From IMG/VR virus record IMGVR_UViG_3300019888_000002, positions 1-64,000 of that record: a stretch of DNA of 64,000 bases. One strand, 5' to 3'. The notes under the pieces were generated by a model that saw only the letters and a program-made list of their open reading frames with translations, did no database searches and was not told where the DNA came from. This DNA is from a virus. How positions within the stretch are numbered: position 1 is the stretch's first letter; every line of letters begins with the position of its first letter. This document shows positions 24,944 to 42,526 of this stretch, piece by piece. A program made the position numbers and the translations under genes.

Positions 24944-24970
24944 TTGACGAGATAACTCCCGTGGTACGGT
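24944..24970 (+). promoter_or_regulatory. Promoter for the GHKL ATPase gene
   Basis: -35 TTGACG, 15-bp spacer ending GTGG, -10 TACGGT. The AGGAACCCCC leader precedes the ATG. Same architecture as the leftward promoters. Confidence 0.65.
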
Positions 24971-25007
24971 GCAGTTATCTATTCTCACACAGAACAGGAA
25001 CCCCCAC

Positions 25008-27008
25008 ATGAGCTTCATCCAGCCATTGATCATGGCACCCAACCCCCGGGGAGCGGCGCTCCTGATCAATCGCACCTTCAAGGAGGGCGAGATCGATCAG
25101 TACAAGCGAGAGCTGGTCAAGAACGCCATCGAGGCCAATGCCACCGAGATCAGAACCACAGCTCTGCGCCTCGAAGACCTCGGGGACGAAGGAGGTGTCA
25201 AGGCAGCCTTCGTGGACAACGGCGACGGCATGAGTTCGAACAAAATCACCGACTACATCGGCGAACTGTTCAACGGGGCCTCCTCCATGGGTGCCGACGG
25301 CAACTTCCAGATGGGTGCCCGCGTGTCCACCCTGCCCTTCAACCAAGCAGGCATCCTGGTGGCCTCCTGGACCGAGGCCGAACCCGAAGGCACCATTCTC
25401 TGGATCAGATGGGACAAGACCGAGCAGTGTTACGGCGTCGAGCCCTGGGAAGACGAAGACGGAGTAGCACAGCCGACCGGAATCCCTGACCCCTCGCTCA
25501 AGCACGAGATCATCGAGAAGACCGGGCACGGGACCGTGTTCGTTCTGCTGGGCAGTAAGGACGAAGACCACACCGTCGGCGAGATCGGTCAGGGTCTCGA
25601 CGGCCACTTCGTCTACCCGGACGTACGCAACACCCGTGACGACCTGCTCTTCTACAACTCGAAGTTCTGGGTCCTTCCGGAGGAAGTGGTCCTCAAGACC
25701 ATGTGGGCTCCCCGGGACCTCATATCCTGGAAGAACAAGATCGCCCCGGGGCAATGGTTCGATGACATCGTGGACCACAACTCCTGGCGCTGGCGCAAGT
25801 ACGAAGGTGTCGAAGACCGAATCACCAAGTTCGCCGAGACCAAGGGCTCGGTTTCGGTGACCTCTCACCGAGGTCACAAGGCCACGGTTCACTGGGCACT
25901 GTTCCCCGAAGGTAAGTTCATCGGCCAGGACGGAAGCGGGGCCTCTCGAGACACCACCGACTACTACATCCCACTGGGACTGTTCGGTGAGATGTTCAAA
26001 GGCGAGATCTACAACATTCGGCAGTTCGGCAAGGCTCGCACGGCCATGGAGCACTACGGCGTGGCTCGCAGAGAGCTACGGGACAGGCTCGTCCTGATCA
26101 TCGAGCCGAACAAGAAAAGCGCATCCTTCATCGGTGCCGAGCCCTCGGGTGCGAGAGGCCACCTCATGATCGCCAACGGTCCACTGCCACACGAAGAGTG
26201 GGGTGAGAACTTTGCCCTGCATATGCCGCAGGCGATCAGGGAACGCCTGGACGACCTGAACTCGGCGAACACCGACGACCAGAAGGAGAAGATCAGGCGC
26301 ATCCACGATCGGCTGAAGAACTACTTCACGCGCACGATCAGAAGCACCCTGCCGACGGCCGAGGAGGCCCCGACCGGAGACGAGACCGACGAAGACGGTA
26401 ACACCGGACAGAATCCCGACACCGGCTCGACACCGGGCAAGTCGAGAAGAATCATCGACGGCCCCGAGTTCCCGCGCGGACCTCGGACAGGAATCAAGGT
26501 GACCAGGAGACCACGCAAGCTCTCCAGGATCGGTGGAGGGGCGAAGAAACGGGCTCCAGGGCTCAGCTCCAGTCATTCCAATCCGACCCAGCAGATCAAC
26601 GAGGTCTGGGACACGACCGGAGAGGAGTTCACCGACGGCCTGGAGGCACTCGTCGTGAAATGGGTCCCGGCCGGGCGTCGGCTCATCGTGAACGGGGCTC
26701 ATCCCTATATCACCGAGCTGCTGCGGATCGAGAAGGTGGAGCGTAAGGAGAGCAAGGCCGAGGAGGTCGAACGATACCTCAGGGAGGCAATCTTCACTCA
26801 CCTGATCAGCCACATCCTGTCGGTGGAGCTGTATGCCAGGTCCACGATGGCCGGGTCTACCGGGGTCGGGACCGACTTCACCAAGGCTGCTCTGTCCGAT
26901 CAGTCTCTCTCGGCCACGGTGCTGAATCTGCCGACACTCGAGTCTCTGGTCCATGCCAAGTTCAAGGGCCGAACCGGTCTCGGGAAGACCAAGACTCCAG
27001 CGGCCTAG
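25008..27008 (+). CDS. GHKL (Hsp90/histidine-kinase-type) ATPase
   Basis: 666 residues. The ATP-binding fold is clear: N-box ELVKNAIEANA (35-45), G1 box FVDNGDGM (68-75) and NFQMGARVSTLP (99-110). The middle is a transducer-like domain; residues about 445-520 are a Gly/Asp/Arg linker; the C terminus is helical. There is no kinase phospho-acceptor domain, so it resembles MutL/MORC/Hsp90-type ATPases more than a histidine kinase. It starts the rightward island and has its own promoter. Possible DNA-remodelling or host-takeover role; the family (some phage ATPases) is poorly described. Confidence 0.8.
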   Translation: MSFIQPLIMAPNPRGAALLINRTFKEGEIDQYKRELVKNAIEANATEIRTTALRLEDLGDEGGVKAAFVDNGDGMSSNKITDYIGELFNGASSMGADGNFQMGARVSTLPFNQAGILVASWTEAEPEGTILWIRWDKTEQCYGVEPWEDEDGVAQPTGIPDPSLKHEIIEKTGHGTVFVLLGSKDEDHTVGEIGQGLDGHFVYPDVRNTRDDLLFYNSKFWVLPEEVVLKTMWAPRDLISWKNKIAPGQWFDDIVDHNSWRWRKYEGVEDRITKFAETKGSVSVTSHRGHKATVHWALFPEGKFIGQDGSGASRDTTDYYIPLGLFGEMFKGEIYNIRQFGKARTAMEHYGVARRELRDRLVLIIEPNKKSASFIGAEPSGARGHLMIANGPLPHEEWGENFALHMPQAIRERLDDLNSANTDDQKEKIRRIHDRLKNYFTRTIRSTLPTAEEAPTGDETDEDGNTGQNPDTGSTPGKSRRIIDGPEFPRGPRTGIKVTRRPRKLSRIGGGAKKRAPGLSSSHSNPTQQINEVWDTTGEEFTDGLEALVVKWVPAGRRLIVNGAHPYITELLRIEKVERKESKAEEVERYLREAIFTHLISHILSVELYARSTMAGSTGVGTDFTKAALSDQSLSATVLNLPTLESLVHAKFKGRTGLGKTKTPAA

Positions 27009-28865: not shown

Positions 28866-29864
28866 TCAAGATTTGCGCAATGCAATCAGGCCGCGCGGAT
28901 TTAGGATAGCCATACCTACCAATTCGTCCATCACCCAGCCCTTGTGGAACTGCTCCACCTGGTTGTTCTCTTCGACGTCCAGGCTGTACATCACCGGGAA
29001 CACGCCGAGGAACTCCGGTGCGGGCGCGAGGTACACCGTCCCCTTCGGCACGATGATCGACTTGCCGATCTGGAACTCACCGAACTGCACGATGCGCTCA
29101 CCCGCGACCACACTGTCCTTGAACGCCCAACCGGTGGTGTTGATATCCCACCGGTAGAAGTCGCGGAACTCCGACGGATGGCAGAGGAGTCGGCTCGAGT
29201 CCAACTGCCGGGTGTCGGTGTAGCTCACGGCCGTGTAGAGATCATCGGGCATGAGGTGCGTGCCGGTGATGGTGATCTCGTTGGGCAGGGTGCCGCCGAT
29301 GTTGGCCGTGGAGTCCACCGTGCGGTACTGGACGATGGCCGCCTCGATCAGGGTGACGAGACGTCCGTCCTCCTGCCGCATGATGGCCTGCTTGGTCATG
29401 TCCTGCGTGTACTCCACGATGTTGCTGCGGAGGTAGTACAGGTCTTCCTTCTTGATCTTGGGGAAGCTGGCGATGCGGAAGAGCTGCACCTCCACACGCT
29501 TGCCCTCGAACGGCGTGATCTTGATCTCGCCCTCGTTGCCATGAAGGATGTACGCCTGACCCAGGTCGTCCAGCACGTCGTACTGGATCGGCACGCCGGG
29601 GGTCAAAGCATCTTCCAGCAGCACGTTGCGCAGGATGCCCTGGTAACGAAGCTGAAGCTGGATCGGACCGATCATCGACTGACCGAGCCGGAGGATGCCG
29701 TTCTGCTGATCCGAGACGATCGTGCGTAGCTTCGCCTTCTTCTCGGCTGCGGTCAATGTACGACCACCGAGCTTCTGACGTGCTGCGACAATAGACTTCA
29801 CGTACTCGTCCGATGCCTTGGCGAACCTGCCGAGGCCCGACGCTTCTGCGACTGCGAGTGTCAT
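28866..29864 (-). CDS. Major capsid protein
   Basis: 332 residues from the ATG at 29864 (AAAGGAGAG upstream). Soluble, helix-rich N terminus and alpha/beta C terminus (YLAPAPEFLGVFPVMYSLDVEENNQ; GWVMDELVGMAILNPRG) in the style of HK97-fold major capsid proteins of large actinophages. It follows the decoration-like gene and the protease gene, the standard head order. The identity rests on order and general style, not on a search. Confidence 0.8.
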   Translation of the reverse strand: MTLAVAEASGLGRFAKASDEYVKSIVAARQKLGGRTLTAAEKKAKLRTIVSDQQNGILRLGQSMIGPIQLQLRYQGILRNVLLEDALTPGVPIQYDVLDDLGQAYILHGNEGEIKITPFEGKRVEVQLFRIASFPKIKKEDLYYLRSNIVEYTQDMTKQAIMRQEDGRLVTLIEAAIVQYRTVDSTANIGGTLPNEITITGTHLMPDDLYTAVSYTDTRQLDSSRLLCHPSEFRDFYRWDINTTGWAFKDSVVAGERIVQFGEFQIGKSIIVPKGTVYLAPAPEFLGVFPVMYSLDVEENNQVEQFHKGWVMDELVGMAILNPRGLIALRKS

Positions 29865-30429: not shown

Positions 30430-33216
30430 TCAGCGCAGGAACAACAGGGAGTCGTTCTCCACGTCGTTATCCGACGCTGCCGTGCGCGGGGCTGCTCCCA
30501 TGGAGGAGAGACCCTGCGGAATTGCACTCTTGACGCTCGACCCTCGAGTAACACCAGCGGTCTTCGTACGTGCGGGAGTAGCTTCCACGACTCGATCCAA
30601 CAGAGCGATCCTGTCCAGAACGGTGGCGCGGGTTGTCTTCTCGAACTGATCGACCAGGTTCCACTTGTCAGCTTCCTTGTCGATCCCCAGCGCGATGTGC
30701 AGCTCGGCGAGTCGTACCGCCTGTGCCGCGCTGGCCTTGCGGACCGCCCCGGACTTCTTCCCGTCACCGGGAGCCCAGTTCTGATCCGTGCTCAGGTCCG
30801 GCTTGGCAACACCGTCTCCGGCGTTGTTCCCGAAGTCGGTCTTGTCGAACTGAGAATCCTGAGCTTCGTCGTCGGTCGTGCCCGAAGTGGGACGTTCCAC
30901 ATCGATCCGACCGTCCGGCGCGGCGACCTCGAGCTTGTCGTCGGCGGTGCGGCGACGGGTACTCGCCCGCACACGCGACTCCTTCTTCTTGTCGTCGGTG
31001 TCTTTGTCGTCGTCGGTGTCGTCTTTGTCTTTGTCGTCGTCGTCGGAGTCGTCCTTCTTCTTGTCGGCGTTCTCCTTGAAAGAATCCGGCAGCTCACCGG
31101 CCCGGCGACGACGAGCGGACTCCTTGGCCTTGTCCTTCTCGTCGTCCTCGGCCTTGGTCCCGGTGGGTCCGTCGTCATCGGGATCAGTGGCCGCACGGCG
31201 GCGCGATGCCTCGAGAACCTGACCCAACTTCGGATACAGCTCGGTGACCTCGACCCGGGCGAGCTTGGCATAGCTGCGTGCCCATTTACGGATGTCGTTG
31301 GTCGACGCGGCGCGCAGGTTGCCTCCCTCACGGGCCACGTAACGCTGGAACCGAGAGAAATGCATGGCTCGGCGCTGCGCCACCAGGTTGCCCGGGGTGT
31401 TGCTGATCGGATCGTCCTCGTTCGGTGCCACGACCGGCTCCGGAGGAGGGGTCTGAGTGACGAAAGCGTCCTCGGCCACACCTTGATCGTTGCGGCTCTG
31501 GTCCGCTCGGCGGGTTCGCGTGCGTCCCATATCCTTGCCTCCGGTGGTGGATCGACGGTTCATCTGTTCTTGTGCAGAAGGGGTACGGTTTCCAGCGCTC
31601 CGGCCACGATTGCCGGTGAAATGGCTGTTGTCGGCTCCCGCAGCCTCGGCGGCGGCCTTGGCTTCGTCCGGGGAACCAGCAGAGCCCTGCTGGATGTAGA
31701 CCCCGCCGGAATCGTTCACACTCCAGCCGAAACTGCCTCCGTTGTTGGTGACCTTGAGGTACCACCCGGACGGCAGATCCTTGACGATGATGACACCGTC
31801 GAGCGGGTTCTCCTCGTAACGCCAGCCCGACGCCGTCTTCTTGCTGGCGACTCGAGGAAGGTTGTTCCAGACCTGCTCGGCCTCGTGCAGGGTTTCTTCC
31901 AGGCTCGGATTGATGTACTCGTGGCCCTCCACGTCATCGTTGGCGGCGTAGTCCCAAATCCAGTAGCCCCAATAGGTGTTGGCATCGAGTTCGCCGTAGG
32001 ACTTGGCCTCGTAGACGTGGATCGAGTACTGACCACCGGGCGCGTAGTTGTACTGGGTGTTGCCATCCAAGACTTCCTTGACCCACGGGATCGAAGCCGT
32101 CTTGGTGGAGCCATAGTGCTCATCGTCGTCATCGTCGTCGTCATAGTTATAGTGCTCTTCGAGCGAAGCACCTTCGGACTTGCCCATTTCGGCATCGTCG
32201 TAGCCGAGCTGAGTCCAATAGGACATACCAGGGAACCGAGTCAGCCCCAACGCCTTGCCCTGATAACCGAACTCGTAGTCCCTGTAAATCTCGTCCCAGT
32301 TGTCATCACGTCCGTGTCCGAGGTCCCCTGAAAATCCACCGTCACTGTTGTTGAAATCGTCAACCATCTGCTGGGTGACAACGGCCTGCTTACGGTTCTT
32401 GCGTGACTTCTTGGTGGAGTCGGCAGCCTGCTTGCGCTTGGCCGTCATCGACTTGAGCGCCTGCTCGGCGGCGTCCTTGGCCGAAGACGTGTCGGTGGCA
32501 ACACCGTGAGCGTAGGTCGAGCCCGAGTACGGGTCCTCGACGTACCAGGCGATTCCTCCACCGACCTGCTCGACCACCTGACCGGACGGACCGACCGGAG
32601 GTGTGGCGTTGGGATTCCAGGTGGAGAAACCCTTGGTGAAGCCGTCGTCCACGGTGAACCAGGTGACTGCGGCCGTCTTGCGGCGCTTGGCGAACAAAGC
32701 GCCCTGGCCCCCACCGAGAGCCTCGAGTTGCTGCTCAGCCCACATCTTGGCCTCCTCGACCGTGGCGAAAGTTTTCTCTGCGACCGTGCGATCCCATTCG
32801 TTGGGGTAGATCGAGCACAGGTGCGGGGTGGGGTCGTCATCGAACCACTGATCGATCCGGGCGAACGGGGCCTCGGTATCGGTATTGAGATTGGTACCGG
32901 GAAGGGTGCCGATCGACTCGTCGCCGTTGTCACTCCATTCGAGAGAGGCCGTCTTCTTGCTGGCCCACAGGTGAGCGTTGTCCGGGTCGTTCCACCCGCC
33001 AGCGTCCAAGAACGTATCGGTCACATTCTGATCCCATCCTCGGCTCTGACCGAAATCACGCACATGCTGCGGGGAAGCTGTGCCCGGCAGATCGAGCGAG
33101 CGGAGATGCTCACTCAGCTCGTCCCACTTGCCCTCGTTGTGGTACTGCTCGAACGAGTTGGCGATATGCGGGACGACGAGCGGCTTGTGCAGCGCGGTCC
33201 GGCGAGGAACGGTCAT
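30430..33216 (-). CDS. Possible internal in-frame product (scaffold-like)
   Basis: An ATG at residue 359, directly after the protease and acidic linker, has GAAGGAATC 6 bases upstream. It would yield a 928-residue protein with all the repeat modules but not the protease domain. In phage lambda the scaffold Nu3 is made in the same way from within the protease gene C. Inference only. Confidence 0.35.
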   Translation of the reverse strand: MTVPRRTALHKPLVVPHIANSFEQYHNEGKWDELSEHLRSLDLPGTASPQHVRDFGQSRGWDQNVTDTFLDAGGWNDPDNAHLWASKKTASLEWSDNGDESIGTLPGTNLNTDTEAPFARIDQWFDDDPTPHLCSIYPNEWDRTVAEKTFATVEEAKMWAEQQLEALGGGQGALFAKRRKTAAVTWFTVDDGFTKGFSTWNPNATPPVGPSGQVVEQVGGGIAWYVEDPYSGSTYAHGVATDTSSAKDAAEQALKSMTAKRKQAADSTKKSRKNRKQAVVTQQMVDDFNNSDGGFSGDLGHGRDDNWDEIYRDYEFGYQGKALGLTRFPGMSYWTQLGYDDAEMGKSEGASLEEHYNYDDDDDDDEHYGSTKTASIPWVKEVLDGNTQYNYAPGGQYSIHVYEAKSYGELDANTYWGYWIWDYAANDDVEGHEYINPSLEETLHEAEQVWNNLPRVASKKTASGWRYEENPLDGVIIVKDLPSGWYLKVTNNGGSFGWSVNDSGGVYIQQGSAGSPDEAKAAAEAAGADNSHFTGNRGRSAGNRTPSAQEQMNRRSTTGGKDMGRTRTRRADQSRNDQGVAEDAFVTQTPPPEPVVAPNEDDPISNTPGNLVAQRRAMHFSRFQRYVAREGGNLRAASTNDIRKWARSYAKLARVEVTELYPKLGQVLEASRRRAATDPDDDGPTGTKAEDDEKDKAKESARRRRAGELPDSFKENADKKKDDSDDDDKDKDDTDDDKDTDDKKKESRVRASTRRRTADDKLEVAAPDGRIDVERPTSGTTDDEAQDSQFDKTDFGNNAGDGVAKPDLSTDQNWAPGDGKKSGAVRKASAAQAVRLAELHIALGIDKEADKWNLVDQFEKTTRATVLDRIALLDRVVEATPARTKTAGVTRGSSVKSAIPQGLSSMGAAPRTAASDNDVENDSLLFLR

Positions 33217-34290
33217 AACAGATTCCTTCTTCTTCGTGTCCGACTCGTCGGCCTTGTCATCGTCATCGTCTGTGTCGTCGCGGGGGTCTTCGGCTTCGTC
33301 GTCCGACGGGTGTTGCACCTCGAGGTTCTTCTTCAGGTCGGGGTCCCTCAGCTCCGGGGGAGACTCCACGAACTGATGGAACTCGGACTCGTCCTCTTCA
33401 TCGCGTAACGTATCGACCCGCTCCGGGGATTCGATCTCCCCATATGCCTTCTTGGAGAGGTTGGCTACCCGCCAGTTCGGGTTGGCCATCTCGAAGGTCC
33501 GGCGATGACTCTCGGAGCAGTAGTCGTAGGCGGCATGAGTGCCGGAGGTGTGAACCCACCGGTCGGTGTCGGACTTCTTGGCCCAGCGCTTACAGCCGGG
33601 AAGGTCACAGAGCACCCGGCCGGGCGCGGCACCGACTCGACGGCTGGCGGCGATCACGTTGGAGGTGAGCGCGGTCTCGTCGGCGGGGTCGAACACATAA
33701 CTCAGTTCGAAGAATCCGATGCCCCGGCATTCTTCGTAGACGAGCTTGCCGTCGATCGTCTGCCCCTTGTGATGAAGCACGTGATCGCACATGTCGAACA
33801 TGTCGGTGGCCGTGTTCCCACACACCGAGCAGATTGTCAGTGCAGCAACGCATCCCATGGACACGGCATCGATGCCACCCTCTTCCAGCTCCTTGGCCAG
33901 CTTCGGGTACTTCTTCGCGCTGACTTCCTGGATGACCTGGATGTACTTGTCGGTGCCGTTCTCCACATACCGAGAACCGATCACCCGGCCACGTGCCTTG
34001 CTGGCGTCGTCGTTGGCATGGTTCACGAACAACGGCTTGCCGAGGAAGGTCTTGTACGCGGCTTTGAGTTCCGAGGACGGGAAGCCGTCGAAGTTCTGGT
34101 TGATCCGCGCCGAAATTGCCCTCGTGACGGTGTAGATATGACCCTCGCGCGGGACGAAGCCGTCGACCAAAGCGGAGTCAGGGTAGCTCTGCCAGGTGGC
34201 GATCAGATCACGAGCGGCCTCGATCGAGGACGCAGCGTGCTTGATACGACCTCGAACGCTGTTGGCCTTCTTCATCGTGTCGACGCTCAA
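30430..34290 (-). CDS. Head-maturation protease polyprotein with repeat modules
   Basis: 1286 residues, TTG start with GGAAGGGAAG upstream. Residues about 40-200 are a prohead-protease domain with the likely catalytic His91 (LFVNH) and Ser144 (DAVSMGC), followed by a zinc-like CSVCGN...MCDH. Residues 300-360 are Asp/Lys-rich. From about 447 on come (R/K)-(T/Q)-A motifs near 447, 539, 621, 635, 731, 819, 1112, 1241 and 1271, spaced by about 82-96 residues in the middle and enclosing small W/Y-rich alpha/beta modules with Ala/Glu helices. Far larger than usual proteases; probably cleaved by itself. An internal start lies at 33216. Confidence 0.85.
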   Translation of the reverse strand: MSVDTMKKANSVRGRIKHAASSIEAARDLIATWQSYPDSALVDGFVPREGHIYTVTRAISARINQNFDGFPSSELKAAYKTFLGKPLFVNHANDDASKARGRVIGSRYVENGTDKYIQVIQEVSAKKYPKLAKELEEGGIDAVSMGCVAALTICSVCGNTATDMFDMCDHVLHHKGQTIDGKLVYEECRGIGFFELSYVFDPADETALTSNVIAASRRVGAAPGRVLCDLPGCKRWAKKSDTDRWVHTSGTHAAYDYCSESHRRTFEMANPNWRVANLSKKAYGEIESPERVDTLRDEEDESEFHQFVESPPELRDPDLKKNLEVQHPSDDEAEDPRDDTDDDDDKADESDTKKKESVMTVPRRTALHKPLVVPHIANSFEQYHNEGKWDELSEHLRSLDLPGTASPQHVRDFGQSRGWDQNVTDTFLDAGGWNDPDNAHLWASKKTASLEWSDNGDESIGTLPGTNLNTDTEAPFARIDQWFDDDPTPHLCSIYPNEWDRTVAEKTFATVEEAKMWAEQQLEALGGGQGALFAKRRKTAAVTWFTVDDGFTKGFSTWNPNATPPVGPSGQVVEQVGGGIAWYVEDPYSGSTYAHGVATDTSSAKDAAEQALKSMTAKRKQAADSTKKSRKNRKQAVVTQQMVDDFNNSDGGFSGDLGHGRDDNWDEIYRDYEFGYQGKALGLTRFPGMSYWTQLGYDDAEMGKSEGASLEEHYNYDDDDDDDEHYGSTKTASIPWVKEVLDGNTQYNYAPGGQYSIHVYEAKSYGELDANTYWGYWIWDYAANDDVEGHEYINPSLEETLHEAEQVWNNLPRVASKKTASGWRYEENPLDGVIIVKDLPSGWYLKVTNNGGSFGWSVNDSGGVYIQQGSAGSPDEAKAAAEAAGADNSHFTGNRGRSAGNRTPSAQEQMNRRSTTGGKDMGRTRTRRADQSRNDQGVAEDAFVTQTPPPEPVVAPNEDDPISNTPGNLVAQRRAMHFSRFQRYVAREGGNLRAASTNDIRKWARSYAKLARVEVTELYPKLGQVLEASRRRAATDPDDDGPTGTKAEDDEKDKAKESARRRRAGELPDSFKENADKKKDDSDDDDKDKDDTDDDKDTDDKKKESRVRASTRRRTADDKLEVAAPDGRIDVERPTSGTTDDEAQDSQFDKTDFGNNAGDGVAKPDLSTDQNWAPGDGKKSGAVRKASAAQAVRLAELHIALGIDKEADKWNLVDQFEKTTRATVLDRIALLDRVVEATPARTKTAGVTRGSSVKSAIPQGLSSMGAAPRTAASDNDVENDSLLFLR

Positions 34291-34350: not shown

Positions 34351-36189
34351 TCACAGGAGATAGTGCGTGCCCTCGAGGCTCAACTCTTTGGGGTCCAACG
34401 GAGCCCCGTCGGCCGATGCCTCATTGATCAGTGCCTCCTGCTCGGAGAAGGTGTAATTGCGACCGGCCACCTTGGGCACTCCACCCATCAGATAGGCCAA
34501 CGGGTCCCCCTGATCGCTCACAGCGGCTTCACGAGTATCCACAGCGGAGAACATGGCCAGCGCGGGATCGTCGGCCTCCACCGGGGCCGAGCTGGACCCC
34601 GTGGACCCGGCCAGCGGGTCCATGTTGCCGAACGCCTGAATCGAATCCAGGGATGCCTCCCGGAAATCGTGATCCTCGGAGGCCGCCATCACCGGATTGA
34701 TCCCCGGCACGTTCACCCGTTCCATGCGAGAGCGTTCGTGCCGCTCGACATAGGACTCGCTGGTGTCGATGTCCGGTGCGTCGACCGCGCCGGAACCCTG
34801 GAAAGGCTCATGATTCTCGGGTTCGTAGAGCCCGCCGCAGGCTTGCACCTCGATCGCCGCCGTCAGGTTGTCGGCGTTGTACCCGCGTGCGCGTAAGACC
34901 TGCACGATCCGGCTCATCTCCCGATTGCGCTCCTCGTTGTGCTGCGGCCGGTTGTTCTCGGCACCGAGCGCACGGAGACGTTCCAGCAGCTGCTGATCCT
35001 CGGGATCGATCACCCGTTGGATGTCGATGATGGCGGCCATGATGCCGATGGAGCTGCTCACTCCGATCAAACCGTGCTCGGACCGAAGGTCTTCGTGATG
35101 CAGGTGGCCCCCGGCGTCCGGGATGTCGTTGTCATCGAAATGCAGCGAACCCGGCTCGTGTGTGAGGTACCCCGGTGCGGGCTCGTAGCCCCTCCGTCCG
35201 GCCGTGTTCTGCATGTCGGCATTCGGGTCCTGGTCCTGCGGTTGACCCATGTCGCCCTCGGCATCGGCGGCGGGAACGGGCTCACTGCGGCCCTCACCGT
35301 CGGCCTCGACACTGCGAGAGGCATACCAGGCCGGGGTCTTGTCCTTCTTCTGATGCTGACTCCGCAGCTCGAGATAGGCAGCATAGGCATGGCTGCACAA
35401 CCGGCCGACGAAGGTGAACTTACGTTTGAACGCCCACTTGCCCCATTCACAGGTGCAGTCCCACTCCGAGATCGAACTGTCCCCCGCCATCGCGCCGGAA
35501 CGGACCACGATCGTCTCGTACACCCCGTGGTCCCCCATGACATAGGCGTAGATCGACTGCGGAGTGGCCCCGATGACCTCCACCTGACCGTCGTTACGGA
35601 TACGCACGCCCTTGGCGCGTACGTCCTTCCACGCTGCGGTGCGGATATCGGCATCGGCGGCGAGAAGATTCAGGTAATTGGCGGTGTGCTCATCGATCTC
35701 GTGACCGTCACCGGCATGATGAGCGAACTGGAGGTCCTGAGCGAGCCGGACCGGGTTGTGACGCAACCGGGAGATGATCGAGTCCTTGTCGAACTCCTCC
35801 GGCACGGCAGCGAACCGGGCATCCCGGCTGCCGTAGGTCTCCTCGGTCGACGCCTCGGCGAACAGGTGCCCGGCCGGTGCGGGCTCGGCGGCGTACGGGC
35901 GTTCCTCGAAGGTCAACGAGTCGGACGGGCGCAACCGCTTGTCCGGGTCGATTCTCATGTCTCCGAGCGGCTGCTGATAGACCTCCGAAGGCCATTGCGG
36001 GCGAGGATCGTAGGGCAACGTGGTGGTGTTGCTCCGGTTCACCTCCGGAGGGTTCTCATCGAACTGGAGCAGGGCGGCATCGATCCAGATCTCGAAGCCC
36101 TCACCTGCGACCTTGTGGGTCGTACGACCGTGGACGGTCTGTGTTTCCACGACCTCCCCGAGGCCGTAGGAAGTGTGCACCTTAGACAT
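34351..36189 (-). CDS. SWIM zinc-finger virion-operon protein
   Basis: 612 residues. Residues 243-270 (EWDCTCEWGKW...LCSHAYA) match the SWIM zinc finger, C-x-C-xn-C-x-H, which binds DNA or proteins. The N-terminal 60 residues form a beta domain (a KOW/SH3-like look: GLGEVVETQTVHG). The C terminus has repeated Asp/Ala-rich stretches. It sits between the protease and the portal-side gene, so it may help package or position DNA in the head. Unusual in a structural operon. Confidence 0.65.
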   Translation of the reverse strand: MSKVHTSYGLGEVVETQTVHGRTTHKVAGEGFEIWIDAALLQFDENPPEVNRSNTTTLPYDPRPQWPSEVYQQPLGDMRIDPDKRLRPSDSLTFEERPYAAEPAPAGHLFAEASTEETYGSRDARFAAVPEEFDKDSIISRLRHNPVRLAQDLQFAHHAGDGHEIDEHTANYLNLLAADADIRTAAWKDVRAKGVRIRNDGQVEVIGATPQSIYAYVMGDHGVYETIVVRSGAMAGDSSISEWDCTCEWGKWAFKRKFTFVGRLCSHAYAAYLELRSQHQKKDKTPAWYASRSVEADGEGRSEPVPAADAEGDMGQPQDQDPNADMQNTAGRRGYEPAPGYLTHEPGSLHFDDNDIPDAGGHLHHEDLRSEHGLIGVSSSIGIMAAIIDIQRVIDPEDQQLLERLRALGAENNRPQHNEERNREMSRIVQVLRARGYNADNLTAAIEVQACGGLYEPENHEPFQGSGAVDAPDIDTSESYVERHERSRMERVNVPGINPVMAASEDHDFREASLDSIQAFGNMDPLAGSTGSSSAPVEADDPALAMFSAVDTREAAVSDQGDPLAYLMGGVPKVAGRNYTFSEQEALINEASADGAPLDPKELSLEGTHYLL

Positions 36190-36733
36190 GCGAAGCCTCC
36201 TGCTCGACTATCTCTTCCTGTCCGAAAGATGCAGGGAATACACCATCCGGGATCAATCGAAGGACCGATTGAGCTGTCGTCGGCACGCATTCGATCAAAG
36301 TGAGCCACAACCCCTGGTTGATGACTCGCATCGGTTCGGAGTGTTCGACCGACCCCACCAGATGCGTCACGATGTGCCGGGGCGACATGGTGACGATGAA
36401 GGACACCATCACGAAATCCGGAAGAACCCGCTCGGCTTCGGCCCAGCTGGCCCCTCGGGAGCGTAGCGACTCGAAGAGGGCCACGGCCTGGGCTGCCAAC
36501 TCGTTGTGACGGTCCTGCTGGCTCGAGGGGACATGAAAAGCGATGTCCCGGGTGTGGGTGTCCACTCTGCCGACGGTCTTGGAGACCAATTGGTCCCCGA
36601 ACTCCGATTGAACGAAGCGTGGGGCCACGATCTGCCAGGTGATCGAGCCATGAGCCAACCCGAGATCGTCACCGACGGAGTCTCGGACGATGTTGACCTC
36701 GATCTCTTCGGTGAAAACCGGTCTCATACCCAT
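36182..36733 (-). CDS. Hypothetical head-operon protein
   Basis: 183 residues (or 181 from the second ATG at 36727, which overlaps the portal stop as ATGA). Beta-rich middle (SITWQIVAPRFVQSEF; DIAFHVPSSQQD), soluble. It overlaps genes on both sides, so it is translationally coupled with the portal. Possibly a head-completion protein. Confidence 0.6.
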   Translation of the reverse strand: MGMRPVFTEEIEVNIVRDSVGDDLGLAHGSITWQIVAPRFVQSEFGDQLVSKTVGRVDTHTRDIAFHVPSSQQDRHNELAAQAVALFESLRSRGASWAEAERVLPDFVMVSFIVTMSPRHIVTHLVGSVEHSEPMRVINQGLWLTLIECVPTTAQSVLRLIPDGVFPASFGQEEIVEQEASHV

Positions 36734-39204
36734 AACGGCTGGATTCCGTGGACCAATTCGTACTGCTCGAGCATTCCTTCGAGATCTTCGTGCTGACTGA
36801 CGATGCTGGCGGCCGTGCGCCGACGCACTTCGTCGGAGGCGAAATGATATTCCTCGATATCGGGCCAGTCGGTGTGGAAATCCAGTCCGTTTTGATTGAG
36901 CGTGGAGTAGAAGTGCTCACTGGAGACCAGATCGGCGACCGTGGGCATCTTGTAGGCCATCCGGTCGATGGCTTCCCGGACACTCTGGTCGTCGGCGCGC
37001 AACACGGCTCCCACCGAGGACGGAGCCTGACCCAATCGATTGACCACCACCGGTACCGGCTCTTCTCCGTCGACCGAGGCGGCCTTGGGCATGGTCTTGC
37101 GCTGCTCGTCGGATTCGGCCGGACGAGACCGGTTGCGCGGGCTCGGTGGTTTGGTCTTGGTGTCTTCCGTACCGCTCGGCGGGTTCGCGTCCTTGGCGTC
37201 GGAGATCGAGGTCTCGATCCCGTTGTCCATGTCGTTGGGTCCGGCGCTGTCGGCACCCTCGGCACCGGCTGCTCCAGCCGTTCCTGGCATCTCACCGGTT
37301 TCCTCGAAGTGATCCTTGGTCGACTCGGCCATTTCGGCGTCGGTCTTGGCCTTGTCGTTGTTGATTCCGGCCTGTTCGGCCATCTTCTCTTCACGCTCGA
37401 GCTGCGACTGAGCTGCCAAGAACTTGGCCAGCTCGGGCGGCATCGGCAGCCCCTGAGCCTTGATCAGCTCGGCGGCCTTCTTCATGGCCTGAGCCTGAGC
37501 GACCAGCTTGTCCACCATCTCCTCGGACTGCTTCTCCAGCTCCGACTCGAACTCGATCGGCACGTTGACGGCCAGACTGCGATCCGAGATCGGGACCCCG
37601 GCGTTCTTGAGCATCTGAAGGAACGACCGCTCCTGTGCTTCGTCGCGCAGATTGAGTGACTGGAACTTGATGTCGGGAATCAACAGCTTGGGCACCTTGC
37701 GGATGGTCTCCTCGCCGGTCCGGGGATCGGTCTCCACGATCTCCCGATAGACCGGCTCTCGATTGCCGCCCCGAGTGTCGTAGTCGTAATGGCCTTGGGC
37801 CTCGGCGATGACCAGGCACCGCTTCCGAACGTGGCGTTTCACGGCGTTCTGGTAGCTCAGCATCATCTGCGTGACGAACTCGCGGTTGAGCGCGGTCGAC
37901 GCATAGTTCTGGGTGCCGGTGCCACCGGAGATCAGAGCCTCGCCGATGCCCCATGCCTGCATCAGCTTCTTGTCGATCCGGCTGTAATCGGTGTCGAATC
38001 GGGGAACGGCTTCCCGGCCGAACACACTCTTGATGTCGAGCCCCATGTGATGCACCATCAGGCGGAAATCGGCGGCCAGGGCGCTTTGAAGGTTCTCCCG
38101 GGTTTCGTCCAGTTCGGCAGGGGTGGGAATCCACGGTCCGGCGTCGTCACCGAGGTTGGCGATGCCGAGAGTGGCCAGGATCAGCGGGCTGTAGAGCCGA
38201 TCCGCCACGGCGTCCTGTGCGGCGTTGAGCGATTCTTCGAGCATCAGGGTCTTGAAGGAACGCATCATGTGAGGTGTCCCCCGGGTGTCCCACGGCTGCA
38301 CCTTGTTGACGATCCGAGAGATCAGTGCGTCGGAGATGTCGATACCGTCGTCCTGGGCGGCGGCGGCGATGAACTCGGGGTACTCGTTGACCAGGGTCTG
38401 GTAGTCGTTCTGTCGCTGACGGCGTTCGCTGGCCGAAAGGTTGGCGTCGTCCATACTTCCCGAACCGGAGCGCAGGCCCTCGACCATTTCCTTGACCATG
38501 AGCTGCACTCGTTCGACCGGCTGATCGGTGTCGCTGTTCCCGAACATCGGTTTGGAGACGTGCAGGTGATCGGGGTCCATGATCTCTTCGGCTGTCCAGA
38601 TGCCGAGGGTCTCGGAGAAATGGCCCAGTGCGTTGATCTCACCGGAGATGAAGTATTCCCGACCCATGTCCTGAAGGAAATTCCCGTAATCCAGGGTGTC
38701 GAAGAACATTTCGTTGTAGAAACGCTCGATCTCCGGATCTTTGTTGGTCAGTTCAAACCCGATCACCGGGAACTTGGAGTAGATGTCGATCAGCAACGGA
38801 ATCAGGTCGTGGGTGCAATAGAACAACCGAGCCCAACGCCTGATCTCGATCAGTTCCTTGGGGTTACGGGTGTCGAACGGGATGCCCTTGTCGATCAGCG
38901 AGGACATCGGTTTGCGGACCTTGGGCAACGCCAGTTGCACGTTGGCCCCGGTGCGGGACATCGCCGCCACTCGTTGACGAGCGGCCCCCATGGACGCGGT
39001 GAGCGTCCGATTGTCCATCGACTCCCGGACCCGCGCTGTCTCCGACATGGCCGAGCCGTCGGAATAGGGCAAGGTGTATCCGGCCTGCCGAAGCTGCTGC
39101 ATGTGGGTGTTGAGGTTGGTGGTCACAAGCCGGGGGTTGGTGGTGGCTCCACCCACACCTGCCGTCCGAGAACCACGGAGGTCTCTCACCGTGAAATCGG
39201 CCAT
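36724..39204 (-). CDS. Portal protein
   Basis: 826 residues. The size, the position before the protease polyprotein and capsid, and the long helical centre followed by an acidic, low-complexity tail are typical of myoviral portals. It forms the dodecameric gate for DNA at one head vertex. The N terminus carries GSRTAG (residues 11-16), resembling the (R/K)TA motifs of the polyproteins and possibly cut by the same protease. Confidence 0.85.
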   Translation of the reverse strand: MADFTVRDLRGSRTAGVGGATTNPRLVTTNLNTHMQQLRQAGYTLPYSDGSAMSETARVRESMDNRTLTASMGAARQRVAAMSRTGANVQLALPKVRKPMSSLIDKGIPFDTRNPKELIEIRRWARLFYCTHDLIPLLIDIYSKFPVIGFELTNKDPEIERFYNEMFFDTLDYGNFLQDMGREYFISGEINALGHFSETLGIWTAEEIMDPDHLHVSKPMFGNSDTDQPVERVQLMVKEMVEGLRSGSGSMDDANLSASERRQRQNDYQTLVNEYPEFIAAAAQDDGIDISDALISRIVNKVQPWDTRGTPHMMRSFKTLMLEESLNAAQDAVADRLYSPLILATLGIANLGDDAGPWIPTPAELDETRENLQSALAADFRLMVHHMGLDIKSVFGREAVPRFDTDYSRIDKKLMQAWGIGEALISGGTGTQNYASTALNREFVTQMMLSYQNAVKRHVRKRCLVIAEAQGHYDYDTRGGNREPVYREIVETDPRTGEETIRKVPKLLIPDIKFQSLNLRDEAQERSFLQMLKNAGVPISDRSLAVNVPIEFESELEKQSEEMVDKLVAQAQAMKKAAELIKAQGLPMPPELAKFLAAQSQLEREEKMAEQAGINNDKAKTDAEMAESTKDHFEETGEMPGTAGAAGAEGADSAGPNDMDNGIETSISDAKDANPPSGTEDTKTKPPSPRNRSRPAESDEQRKTMPKAASVDGEEPVPVVVNRLGQAPSSVGAVLRADDQSVREAIDRMAYKMPTVADLVSSEHFYSTLNQNGLDFHTDWPDIEEYHFASDEVRRRTAASIVSQHEDLEGMLEQYELVHGIQPLWV

Positions 39205-39581: not shown

Positions 39582-40304
39582 TCATGTTCGAGAGGCCAGC
39601 ACGGCGTCGGCGCGTACCGGTACCTCACGGGCGATCATCTTGGTTCCACTGGCCGACTGCACCGTGTGAATATTCCACTGCTTCCCACACTCACAGACAC
39701 CGAAGCTCGGTGCTGCGATCTTGACTCCACAAGTGCAGTCGAACGAGTCGATACCGGACTGAGCGATATATCCGGACTGATGGTGATCCCAATCCCATCC
39801 GGCGATACGCGCGATGTTGCCGCTCTGTGGCTGAATCGGCATCAGCGCGGTCTTCTCTCTCGAACCGGTCTTGTGGCTCTTCTTCCCCGGACCCCACTTC
39901 TCCAACGCCTTCTTGTGCTGGGAAGAGCCGGTGCCGAACATGGTCTCGGCATTCCTGATCTTCTCCTCGTTGGAGAACTCACCGGGAGCCGCTGTGCGGG
40001 CTGCCCGACGAGCGGACATGAACTGGCGCTGGAACTCGAGCCGAGTCTCCTCGACTTCGTCCTGACTCTTGAGCGCACCCTCGGCCATCAGCCAGTCCTC
40101 GAAGGACTGCACCCCATGATCGGTGTAATAGGCCCCACCGACCTCGTTGAACCACTGCCGGTAGTCCTCGATGTTCCCCTCGGCGATCAACTCTTTCTCA
40201 CCGGGTCCCAGTGCTTCCCAGTTCTCGGTGGCCTGCCGGGGCACCGATGCCTCGAGATACTGAAGCGTGTGGTGCCCTTCCTCTTCGGTCGCCTCACCGA
40301 TCAA
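39582..40304 (-). CDS. Head-operon protein with zinc site and cleavage-like motifs
   Basis: About 240 residues, but the start is unclear: the first start-like codon is TTG at 40304 without an obvious SD, and the frame is open further upstream. Residues about 100 (ARTAAP) and 150 (EKTALM) carry (R/K)TA motifs, as in the two large head proteins. The C-terminal CTC...CECG is a zinc ribbon. Probably a head-internal protein cut from the same maturation pathway. Confidence 0.6.
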   Translation of the reverse strand: MIGEATEEEGHHTLQYLEASVPRQATENWEALGPGEKELIAEGNIEDYRQWFNEVGGAYYTDHGVQSFEDWLMAEGALKSQDEVEETRLEFQRQFMSARRAARTAAPGEFSNEEKIRNAETMFGTGSSQHKKALEKWGPGKKSHKTGSREKTALMPIQPQSGNIARIAGWDWDHHQSGYIAQSGIDSFDCTCGVKIAAPSFGVCECGKQWNIHTVQSASGTKMIAREVPVRADAVLASRT

Positions 40305-40336: not shown

Positions 40337-42526
40337 CTATGCGCGACGGGCCTTGCCGAAAGACTCTGCCCTCACAGCCAGCTCGGGGAAGTCCTTACTG
40401 GCCTGTTGGCGCATGGACTCGTACCCCATGCTCCGGCGCAATGCCCGCAGAACATCGTTGACGGCATCGGCGAGGAACTGCGAGGTGCCCGAGACGATCG
40501 TGGAGCCCGCCTGCCGCAGGTACCAGTCCCAACCGTTGTCCCCGGAATTGATGCCCATGCTGCGAAGCTGGTTGTCCGGGCTGCTGTACCAATGCTCGGT
40601 GTGATAACCCTCGGCCACACCCTCGGAGTACTGCCACCCGTTGTCGATGAGCCAGCGGTCGACGTTGTTCGGGTCCGGCACCACCCAGGCATAGTCCTCG
40701 GCCGTCTTGCGCAGCTCGGGGAAGTCCTTCATGGCCTGCCGCAATTCCGGGAAGTCCCGCGCTGCCACCGTCGGGTCGAGCGGCTCAGCGTCGTCCTTCA
40801 TCTCTTGCTCGTTGGTACCCGAGAGCGGAGGGTCGACCTTCTTCGGCGGGTTGTCGGCCTGTTTGCGGCGAGACTGCTTCCAAACCGGATGTCCGGCCCA
40901 CGATTCGAAGTCGAGCGGATGACTGCCTCCGGCTTCCTGAAGGCCACCGAGCGAAAGAGTGCGCTTGGCGATCCATGAGGCATACCCTTCGGCCACATCC
41001 GAATCCACCCCCTGGTCGATAGCCCAGTCGAAAGCGTGCTGGAAGGCGAACTGCGACTCCTCCCACAGCTCGGGAGACACATCGTCCTTGCTGGTGCCGC
41101 CTTCTTCCCCGATTCCGAAGACAGCCAGCTTCTTCCGGGCTGCGGCACGCTCCGAAGTGTTGTCGGACTTGCACTGCTCGAGCAGTTCGGCGACCTCTTC
41201 CCAGCTCAGTCCACCGGGCTGGATGGCTTCCTTGCGTTTTCCGTGGAAATGCGGGTTGGAACCGACCGGTTCCCCGGTGCTGGGCACAATGCGCGGGCTG
41301 CTGAGCACCTGCTCGGCGAAAGCTCGAGCCTCGGCGGCGGTGTTGAACTCACGACCCTCGGAGTCACCCGAAAGGGGTTCCACATAAACCGTGAACCCTT
41401 CACCAGTGGACCCGATCTCATAACTACCCCGGTCGTCCGAATGAGATTCGGCCGTCTTGCGAGCCGCCGTACGCGGGTTGCGGTAACCGTTCTGCCACGC
41501 CATCCGAGTGGCCGAATCCAGGGCCGGAAGTAAAACGGACTCATCGGTCTCGGAGGCATATGCCTGAGCCAAGAGTGCCAAATCGACCCGATCGATCACG
41601 TTCTGAGTCAGGATCGTGCCTCGGCGTGACTCCCACGATCCGCCGTTCAGTTCGGGCGCAGGGGCGAGGCCGGAAGGATCACCGGCCGTCTTGCGACTCG
41701 AATACAGCTCCGGGAAATCCTTGCGCAGCTGCTCCTCGGTACCCCGGTCGTAACCCTTGGTGAAATCCTCCATGATGGACTGATTCGCAGGGTCACCCAC
41801 CGGTCGGCTCTTCATGCCGTCGTTGACCACGTTGTTGAGCGAGGGAGCCCGCATATCGCCCCGGCCGTGCGCGGCATAACCTTCGTCTTCGTAGATGCTG
41901 GCTCGCCGGTCGCTGTCCTTGGCGAAGTCGGCACGCTCGACCTCGGCGACATCGCGTTCCCGCTCCCACAGGTACCCGTCGAAGTCGTCCTTGGGGATCA
42001 GTGGTCCCCCGTCGATCGGCCCGGTGCTGTCAGCCTGCTTACGACGAGCAGTCAAAGACCAAAGCTTGTCGACCACCCTTTGTAGATCGACAGTCTCGAT
42101 GACCTGCTTGGTCTTGTCGCTGCCCTTCTCGTAAGCCTGGAGAAGAAGGTTGGCAGTGTTGATATCGACCAAGAGCCCGTCGATGTTCTGGTGACCCTGA
42201 GTCTCGACAATGGAACGAATCGTGTCGATCCGACTGGACTGCTTCTCAACACTTCTTGCGAAGTCCGGCTTCTGAGAGGCCACCACCCGGCGCATCACCC
42301 CCGGCTTGGGCATGAGGAACTCGGCAACCCTCTTCATCATGTCGGACTTGACCAGCGCTATCCGGTCGGTGAAATCGTCCTTGTCCTTGGCGGCACCGAG
42401 GAAGGTCCCGAAGTCCTCGGACACGGCGTGAATCGCTCGTTCCAGAACCTGGTTCGCATCTCGTGCGGCGATCCGCTGTTCGCCCTCGTTTGTGTCGAGA
42501 GCATCGAAAACTCCGAAAACACTCAT
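40337..42526 (-). CDS. Large internal-head-type protein with DFPEL repeats
   Basis: 729 residues. (R/K)-(T/Q)-A motifs occur near residues 164, 277, 354, 552 and 604, dividing it into segments. DFPEL occurs four times (about 268, 588, 598, 709), always after Arg/Lys. One module (after 354) ends in an Ala/Glu helix (TAAEARAFAEQVL) like the polyprotein modules. No enzymatic motif. A scaffold or internal-head protein processed by the head protease is the best guess. Confidence 0.7.
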   Translation of the reverse strand: MSVFGVFDALDTNEGEQRIAARDANQVLERAIHAVSEDFGTFLGAAKDKDDFTDRIALVKSDMMKRVAEFLMPKPGVMRRVVASQKPDFARSVEKQSSRIDTIRSIVETQGHQNIDGLLVDINTANLLLQAYEKGSDKTKQVIETVDLQRVVDKLWSLTARRKQADSTGPIDGGPLIPKDDFDGYLWERERDVAEVERADFAKDSDRRASIYEDEGYAAHGRGDMRAPSLNNVVNDGMKSRPVGDPANQSIMEDFTKGYDRGTEEQLRKDFPELYSSRKTAGDPSGLAPAPELNGGSWESRRGTILTQNVIDRVDLALLAQAYASETDESVLLPALDSATRMAWQNGYRNPRTAARKTAESHSDDRGSYEIGSTGEGFTVYVEPLSGDSEGREFNTAAEARAFAEQVLSSPRIVPSTGEPVGSNPHFHGKRKEAIQPGGLSWEEVAELLEQCKSDNTSERAAARKKLAVFGIGEEGGTSKDDVSPELWEESQFAFQHAFDWAIDQGVDSDVAEGYASWIAKRTLSLGGLQEAGGSHPLDFESWAGHPVWKQSRRKQADNPPKKVDPPLSGTNEQEMKDDAEPLDPTVAARDFPELRQAMKDFPELRKTAEDYAWVVPDPNNVDRWLIDNGWQYSEGVAEGYHTEHWYSSPDNQLRSMGINSGDNGWDWYLRQAGSTIVSGTSQFLADAVNDVLRALRRSMGYESMRQQASKDFPELAVRAESFGKARRA

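Follow-up and report, generated by a model that had tools for sequence, protein, structure and literature searches.

In the window, the 64,000-nucleotide stretch analysed here (positions 1 to 64,000 of IMG/VR virus record IMGVR_UViG_3300019888_000002), a head protein of 1286 amino acids (aa) is probably a protease-scaffold polyprotein that is cut at [KR]-x-(A/G) and carries candidate cargo domains. The polyprotein would enter the procapsid core through its fused scaffold part, bringing with it an N-terminal assemblin-like serine protease (His91/Ser144). This protease would cut after [KR]-x-(A/G), thereby freeing itself and separating the scaffold blocks. It would trim other head components as well: portal, major capsid protein and three proteins packaged alongside, of 729, 240 and 612 aa. 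Two slots in the polyprotein appear to accept extra small domains, each flanked by predicted cut sites, and excision would leave each inserted domain free in the head as a protein of about 9-11 kDa, most likely retained alongside the DNA as cargo.

The window belongs to a 131-kilobase virus record, kin to Rhodococcus phage Finch, Gordonia phage Stormageddon and Bxz1-like Mycobacterium phages, and the host groups of the relatives are Mycobacterium, Gordonia and Rhodococcus. The source virus is likely a large actinobacterial myovirus, with the 1286-aa protein as its prohead protease and scaffold polyprotein.

An assemblin-like protease at the N terminus

The 1286-aa open reading frame (ORF) is genuine, with matches to phrog_2774 (E 9e-190) and, at residues 67-211, to phrog_18299, a 'head maturation protease' (E 1.5e-20). 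The latter match confirms the protease domain of the sequence-only reading, an earlier annotation made from the letters of the window alone, and the His91 and Ser144 named there are invariant across 31-34 aligned relatives, as befits the catalytic His and Ser of the assemblin superfamily. Compared with the Ser-His-His triad of herpesvirus proteases, the Ser and one His are invariant in the phage protease. The gene sits between portal and major capsid protein, as in the caudovirus prohead protease/assemblin superfamily, and the gene order around portal, protease and capsid protein is identical in relatives.

The AlphaFold2 model of residues 1-230 reaches a pLDDT (predicted local distance difference test) of 88 and a pTM (predicted template-modelling score) of 0.82, Finch rows having been left out of the alignments used for structure prediction. 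In a Foldseek search of the PDB with this model, herpesvirus proteases (assemblins) rank 1, 2, 4 and 5, with probabilities of 0.97-1.00, template-modelling (TM) scores of 0.38-0.43 and E values of 0.008-0.035. The predicted fold of the domain is assemblin-like, at modest scores. The protease of Bacillus phage G, gp19, is 45% identical to the window protease over 144 residues.

Within the domain, C154, C157, C168, H170 and C188 (residues 154-188, window positions 33727-33831) are invariant and largely kept in phage G gp19 (CSICGN...FCDH); the cluster is likely a zinc-binding insertion in a prohead protease. A sequence search of the PDB with the protease profile returned weak matches only, mostly zinc fingers hitting this Cys/His cluster, which were set aside, and the whole-polyprotein profile had no match there. 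The domain is interrupted in two relatives: in L043 (9944-14371) an insertion at polyprotein residues about 189-563 matches intein/Hint profiles (PF05203, PF14890), and in L061 (9911-13120) an insertion splits the protease in a similar way. In the divergent relatives L047-L059 (e.g. L049, 9765-10430) the protease is an unfused protein of 217-225 aa followed by a separate ORF, and the N termini of portal and capsid protein still carry RTA, RQA or KTA.

A basic-x-small motif is enriched in head proteins

The motif [KR][TQ]A starts at residues 364, 446, 538, 620, 634, 730, 818, 1114, 1243 and 1269 of the 1286-aa protein. The five sites noticed earlier, near 447, 539, 621, 731 and 819, are correct to within one residue; five further ones had been overlooked. 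These 10 motifs compare with 1.65 expected from composition. The motif was also said to occur in the neighbouring 729- and 240-residue proteins, and it does so in excess (8 vs 0.78 and 3 vs 0.33 expected). Pooled, five head proteins contain 25 motifs against 4.2 expected (p 4e-12) and only 2 copies of the reversed A[TQ][KR], and all other called ORFs of at least 100 aa in the genome contain 39 against 32 expected. The head genes of Finch (29 vs 4.0), Stormageddon (22 vs 4.2) and Ghost (17 vs 5.5) show the same excess, with their other genes at expectation, and those of phage G contain 11 against 3.2.

When all tripeptides downstream of the protease domain are ranked in 36 non-redundant related polyproteins, near-identical contexts being counted once, RTA comes first and KTA third; RVA, RQA, KKA and KLA are enriched too, and Asp or Pro in the middle is strongly avoided. 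A wider form, [KR]-x-(A/G), describes the motif best, [KR]-[TQ]-A being its commonest version. Between residues 446 and 818 the motifs lie 92, 89, 103 and 88 residues apart when 620 and 634 are merged (a choice made after the data were seen), which is more regular than chance placement would give (p about 5e-4) and is expected if the pieces are domain-sized. Elsewhere, a 1468-aa protein of L006 (11396-15802, minus strand) has three near-identical LDKTAVGL repeats, in which [KR][TQ]A is a repeat motif and probably no head cut site.

Conserved junctions and the phage G cut

Motifs at conserved positions are the clearest sign of cut sites. At junction J5, before the conserved block DEKLEVAAPDGR, [KR]-x-A is found in 29/29 alignable polyproteins with x being T, Q, R, K, V, M or F, and the linker upstream of it is not conserved; the count was made by eye, L045, L046 and L061 being unalignable there and L060 having no such block. 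The phage polyproteins end in a conserved tail (e.g. AANDPxNDSxLF) with R-x-A in front. In the portal, R-x-(A/G), in a few cases K-x-G, is conserved ahead of a conserved (S/A)NxQMALPK. The sequence-only reading had placed the motif in the portal N terminus, where RTA at 13 and RQA at 39 do exist; neither is conserved, and as a processing site the conserved RTG at 84-86 is preferred.

In the capsid protein, R-[LI]-G followed by Q or V stands in 33/33 sequences at the column of the phage G cut. N-terminal sequencing gave the phage G major capsid protein 282 residues before and 255 after cleavage (PMC5646251); from these lengths the cleaved bond is VALA27↓Q28, and the masses calculated for the two forms (31.2 and 28.2 kDa) are the same as those published. 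P1 Ala is thus experimental in a relative, and the basic P3 is a feature of the window's phage family. The earlier proposal that one protease cuts several head proteins finds good support in the motif enrichment, the conserved junctions, the assemblin-like fold and this N-terminal datum; cleavage in the window's own family, the exact bond and the retention or ejection of the pieces are what we infer.

Exchangeable inserts and a recurrent module

Across the polyproteins compared, slot 1, between the protease and block B2, holds 1 to 641 residues, and slot 2, between B2 and block B3, 158 to 609. The largest slot-1 values are partly inflated, since the counts for L043 (the extreme) and L061 take in the sequence that interrupts their protease domains, an intein in the case of L043; in two relatives slot 1 is nearly empty. 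The window insert occupies slot 2 (609 residues, about six domains). Its residues 367-820 have no match in the relatives' polyproteins, tblastn of residues 367-905 against phage records gave none, and a Pfam scan of the 1286-aa protein found no domain, the inserts containing no recognisable effector domain. Relatives fill these slots with other, lineage-specific inserts. Ghost uses slot 1 for a tape-measure/endolysin-like domain (457-539; phrog_6090, phrog_16241), interpreted here as a peptidase of the M15 type, and an L5 gp82-like domain (641-758; PF25735), with RTA at 363/369 and RKEA near 590 as insert boundaries; its SWIM-type protein includes a LysM-like stretch.

Blocks are also found in different polyproteins. 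The block VxPPLSGTxEQ belongs to the protease polyprotein in Stormageddon, L014 and L032 and to the 729-aa protein in the window, and it is preceded by RKQA↓D in both Stormageddon and the window. Another block, AIQPGGLSWEEV, is common to the 729-aa protein and the SWIM-type protein of L012. Modularity is supported by lineage-specific inserts in two fixed slots and by blocks moved between polyproteins. It is possible, though we propose it tentatively, that this polyprotein and its two companion polyproteins work as a cassette system, in which interchangeable small domains, gained and swapped between phages and polyproteins, enter the procapsid on a single chain, are separated after [KR]-x-(A/G) by the built-in protease, remain with the DNA and pass into the host on ejection.

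An iterative profile search detects one module in window segments 541-622 and 821-900, in Stormageddon gp8 (three times), gp9 and gp12, in Finch gp12, gp13 and gp16, and in L034, L035, L040 and L042, all of them head-operon proteins. Since the later profile rounds used permissive inclusion, an independent test was added with hhalign and 400 decoys. A profile built without window sequences recovers 821-910 at 97% (score 56) and 541-622 at 91% (score 36), the best decoy scoring 18.5; its independence is incomplete, as its other rows were gathered starting from segment 821-900. Residues 610-729 of the 729-aa protein are suggestive (24.5, 31%), and segments 367-448, 449-540, 637-732 and 733-820 are not separated from the decoys. 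The claim that the pieces share one fold stands for 541-622 and 821-900; for the other four no convincing relation emerged.

AlphaFold2 models the module as a domain of five strands and one helix (pLDDT 82, pTM 0.66). Foldseek against the PDB and BFVD found no match for it at E 0.001 or better, the marginal BFVD matches being small stand-alone phage proteins and Finch gp13. Profile matches in the PDB lie mostly over the Ala/Glu helix, with designed repeat proteins as the best, and were rejected as compositional.

Weighing of alternative explanations

Several points weigh against the protease-scaffold explanation. Foldseek gives the protease modest matches, with TM scores of about 0.40 and none reaching an E value of 0.001. 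The phage G cut has Ala, not K/R, at P3, and the window family has Gly, not Ala, at the aligned P1, so that phage G supports a small P1 residue and the place of the cut, not the basic P3. Motif flanks are no less hydrophobic than the remainder (0.213 vs 0.212); the motifs are thus not obviously open linkers, and a location in less hydrophobic linkers is unsupported. No proteomic data on this phage family were found in the literature searched. Finally, the window inserts have no recognised function and are acidic (isoelectric points of 4.1-5.5 for all five), which fits scaffold filler too, as does the usual loss of propeptides (PMC10052503).

We consider it unlikely that the segments are expendable scaffold or core filler, cut to pieces of about 10 kDa to exit the head before DNA entry, with their content unimportant. 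Inserts that are acidic and mostly unrelated between phages agree with such a role, as do the two relatives almost without a slot-1 insert, the expulsion of cut scaffold in herpesviruses (PMC4498786) and the general departure of propeptides in tailed phages (PMC10052503). However, the relatives' proteins hold recognisable peptidase-like, L5 gp82-like and LysM domains, of which the peptidase-like and LysM domains argue for cargo, and the recurrent module is a confident fold kept across many proteins.

It appears improbable that the motif, instead of being a cleavage site, serves as a tag for docking or packaging or as a basic linker that binds DNA or capsid. The motif is indeed basic and lies between domains, and cleavage is here a prediction, yet such a role has no need for the Ala/Gly end at a fixed junction that is seen in 29/29 polyproteins, and the same pattern recurs at the N termini of portal and capsid protein, the capsid-protein cut being known from sequencing in phage G. 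An enrichment from composition or shared ancestry, without function, is highly improbable, because although Ala, Arg and Thr are frequent in this 61% GC genome, the composition-corrected expectation and the reversed-motif control rule composition out, and many motifs lie in segments without a homologue in relatives and are thus not simply inherited.

Head-gene order and coordinates

The minus-strand head genes follow each other, in the order of transcription, as the 729-aa, 240-aa and 121-aa (DUF7245) proteins, the portal (826 aa), a 183-aa protein, the 612-aa SWIM-like protein, the 1286-aa polyprotein, a cement protein (PF23968) and the major capsid protein. The 612-aa protein has a weak SWIM zinc-finger match, below cut-off; in the relatives examined, its homologues directly precede the protease gene, and some add LysM. 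On the strand opposite the head genes, a 679-aa ORF (24969-27008, plus strand) contains a GHKL-ATPase-like stretch (NAIEANA...FVDNGDGM).

Table 1 Positions in the window of the polyprotein, its parts and the related head genes
Feature	Position	Strand	Remarks
1286-aa polyprotein	30430..34290	-	Head protease at the N terminus, conserved scaffold-like blocks with a variable insert, tail at the C terminus
Protease domain, residues 45-218	33637..34158	-	His91, Ser144 invariant; conserved Cys/His cluster 154/157/168/170/188
Block B2 (GEIESPERVDTLRDE...DPDL), residues 281-322	33325..33450	-	Conserved; separates the two insertion slots
RTA (364-366)	33193..33201	-	Motif opening the variable insert
Variable insert, residues 367-905	31576..33192	-	No phage-record match; 367-820 unlike any relative's polyprotein
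KTA (446-448)	32947..32955	-	Motif
KTA (538-540)	32671..32679	-	Motif
Segment 541-622	32425..32670	-	Recurrent five-strand/one-helix module; iterative hidden Markov model; 91%, profile built without window sequences
KQA (620-622)	32425..32433	-	Motif
KQA (634-636)	32383..32391	-	Motif
KTA (730-732)	32095..32103	-	Motif
KTA (818-820)	31831..31839	-	Motif
Segment 821-900	31591..31830	-	Recurrent module; 97%; AlphaFold2 pLDDT 82, pTM 0.66
Block B3, scaffold-like, begins DQSRNDQG	31366..31503	-	Conserved; RRA (927-929) precedes
RTA (1114-1116) at conserved junction J5	30943..30951	-	[KR]xA in 29/29 alignable polyproteins
Block B5 (DDKLEVAAPDGRIDVE...), residues 1117-1245	30556..30942	-	Conserved; final residues KTA (1243-1245)
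C-terminal RTA (1269-1271) and acidic tail ASDNDVENDSLLFLR	30433..30486	-	Tail conserved in relatives
Major capsid protein	28866..29864	-	Predicted cut RLG61↓QSMIGP (P1 codon nt 29682-29684), in the same alignment column as phage G's sequenced cut
612-aa SWIM-like protein	34351..36189	-	C-terminal putative site PKVA↓GRNY; KVA at nt 34465-34473
Portal	36724..39204	-	Conserved RTG (84-86, nt 38947-38955) behind N-terminal extension
240-aa head-operon protein	39582..40304	-	3 motifs; C-terminal 87 aa conserved in relatives
729-aa head-operon polyprotein	40337..42526	-	8 motifs and RKEA at 431-434
RRKQA ahead of VDPPLSGTNEQEMKDD block in 729-aa protein	40856..40864	-	Block in protease polyprotein in Stormageddon, L014, L032

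Implications and comparison with known systems

With the protease-scaffold explanation comes a rule, readable from sequence, for where the head protease would cut in a large, much-isolated phage group, in which 196 Mycobacterium phage records alone match the protease. The rule predicts where mature portal and capsid proteins begin, and with it polyproteins whose genes mostly bear the label 'hypothetical protein' can be resolved into sets of small candidate cargo domains, some with a link to the cell wall. Tryptic mass spectrometry can easily miss the sites because they adjoin K/R. If the explanation is true, the heads of these phages would be stocked with pre-packaged domains, which come apart in the course of assembly.

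Proteases of the T4 gp21 type cut after (L/I)-x-E, a specificity that differs from the [KR]-x-(A/G) of the conserved junctions. The A-x-E specificity of gp245 of the giant Salmonella phage SPN3US is equally absent from them. This single prohead protease has several head-protein substrates, including portal, major capsid protein and packaged proteins, and makes repeated cuts in long propeptides (PMC10052503). One protease for many head proteins and repeated cuts are likewise predicted for the window phage, whereas gp245 has no fused multi-module polyprotein and removes N-terminal propeptides, its own C-terminal one excepted. The polyvalent proteins of phages and conjugative elements are multidomain proteins with their own peptidase, in some cases assemblin-like; their packaging and delivery is a prediction (Iyer et al. 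2017, PMC5512222). They resemble the window protein in combining many domains with such a peptidase, but theirs is C-terminal and the window protease is N-terminal (residues 45-218 of 1286), within a scaffold; the effector domains of polyvalent proteins are not seen in the window inserts, although relatives do carry peptidase-like domains. Phage G (gp19 protease, gp27 major capsid protein; PMC5646251) shares a homologous protease and capsid protein, cleavage of the latter after Ala, and motif-enriched head genes; its protease is unfused (300 aa), and no tandem module array is seen in the genes read.

The sequence-only reading took the whole scheme to be undescribed. This holds for the combination only, as multi-substrate prohead proteases, repeated cuts and multidomain peptidase proteins are already known (PMC10052503, PMC5512222). 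The literature searched contained no polyprotein in which an assemblin-like protease at the N terminus is joined to a tandem array of interchangeable domains parted by the sites of that protease, no [KR]-x-(A/G) rule and no paper on proteolysis in Bxz1-like phages, most subscription journals being outside reach for the last. The observation is real; it is a variant of prohead-protease processing, and its newness lies in the combination.

Herpesvirus UL26 has the closest solved fold. In a protease-scaffold fusion, the assemblin of pseudorabies virus (pUL26) cuts after Ala at YLQA-T and VQA-S and removes the C-terminal tail, which is bound to the capsid protein (PMC4498786). The phage polyprotein resembles it in the N-terminal protease fused to a predicted scaffold, in P1 Ala and in a C-terminal tail that the last cut would release. 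UL26 differs in having two main sites and no cargo domains, compared with about ten sites, a basic P3, variable modules, predicted trans-cut polyproteins and the protease Cys/His cluster in the phage. In conclusion, the phage protease is tied to herpesvirus assemblin by fold, by scaffold fusion and by P1 Ala, a parallel of fold, layout and P1 residue.
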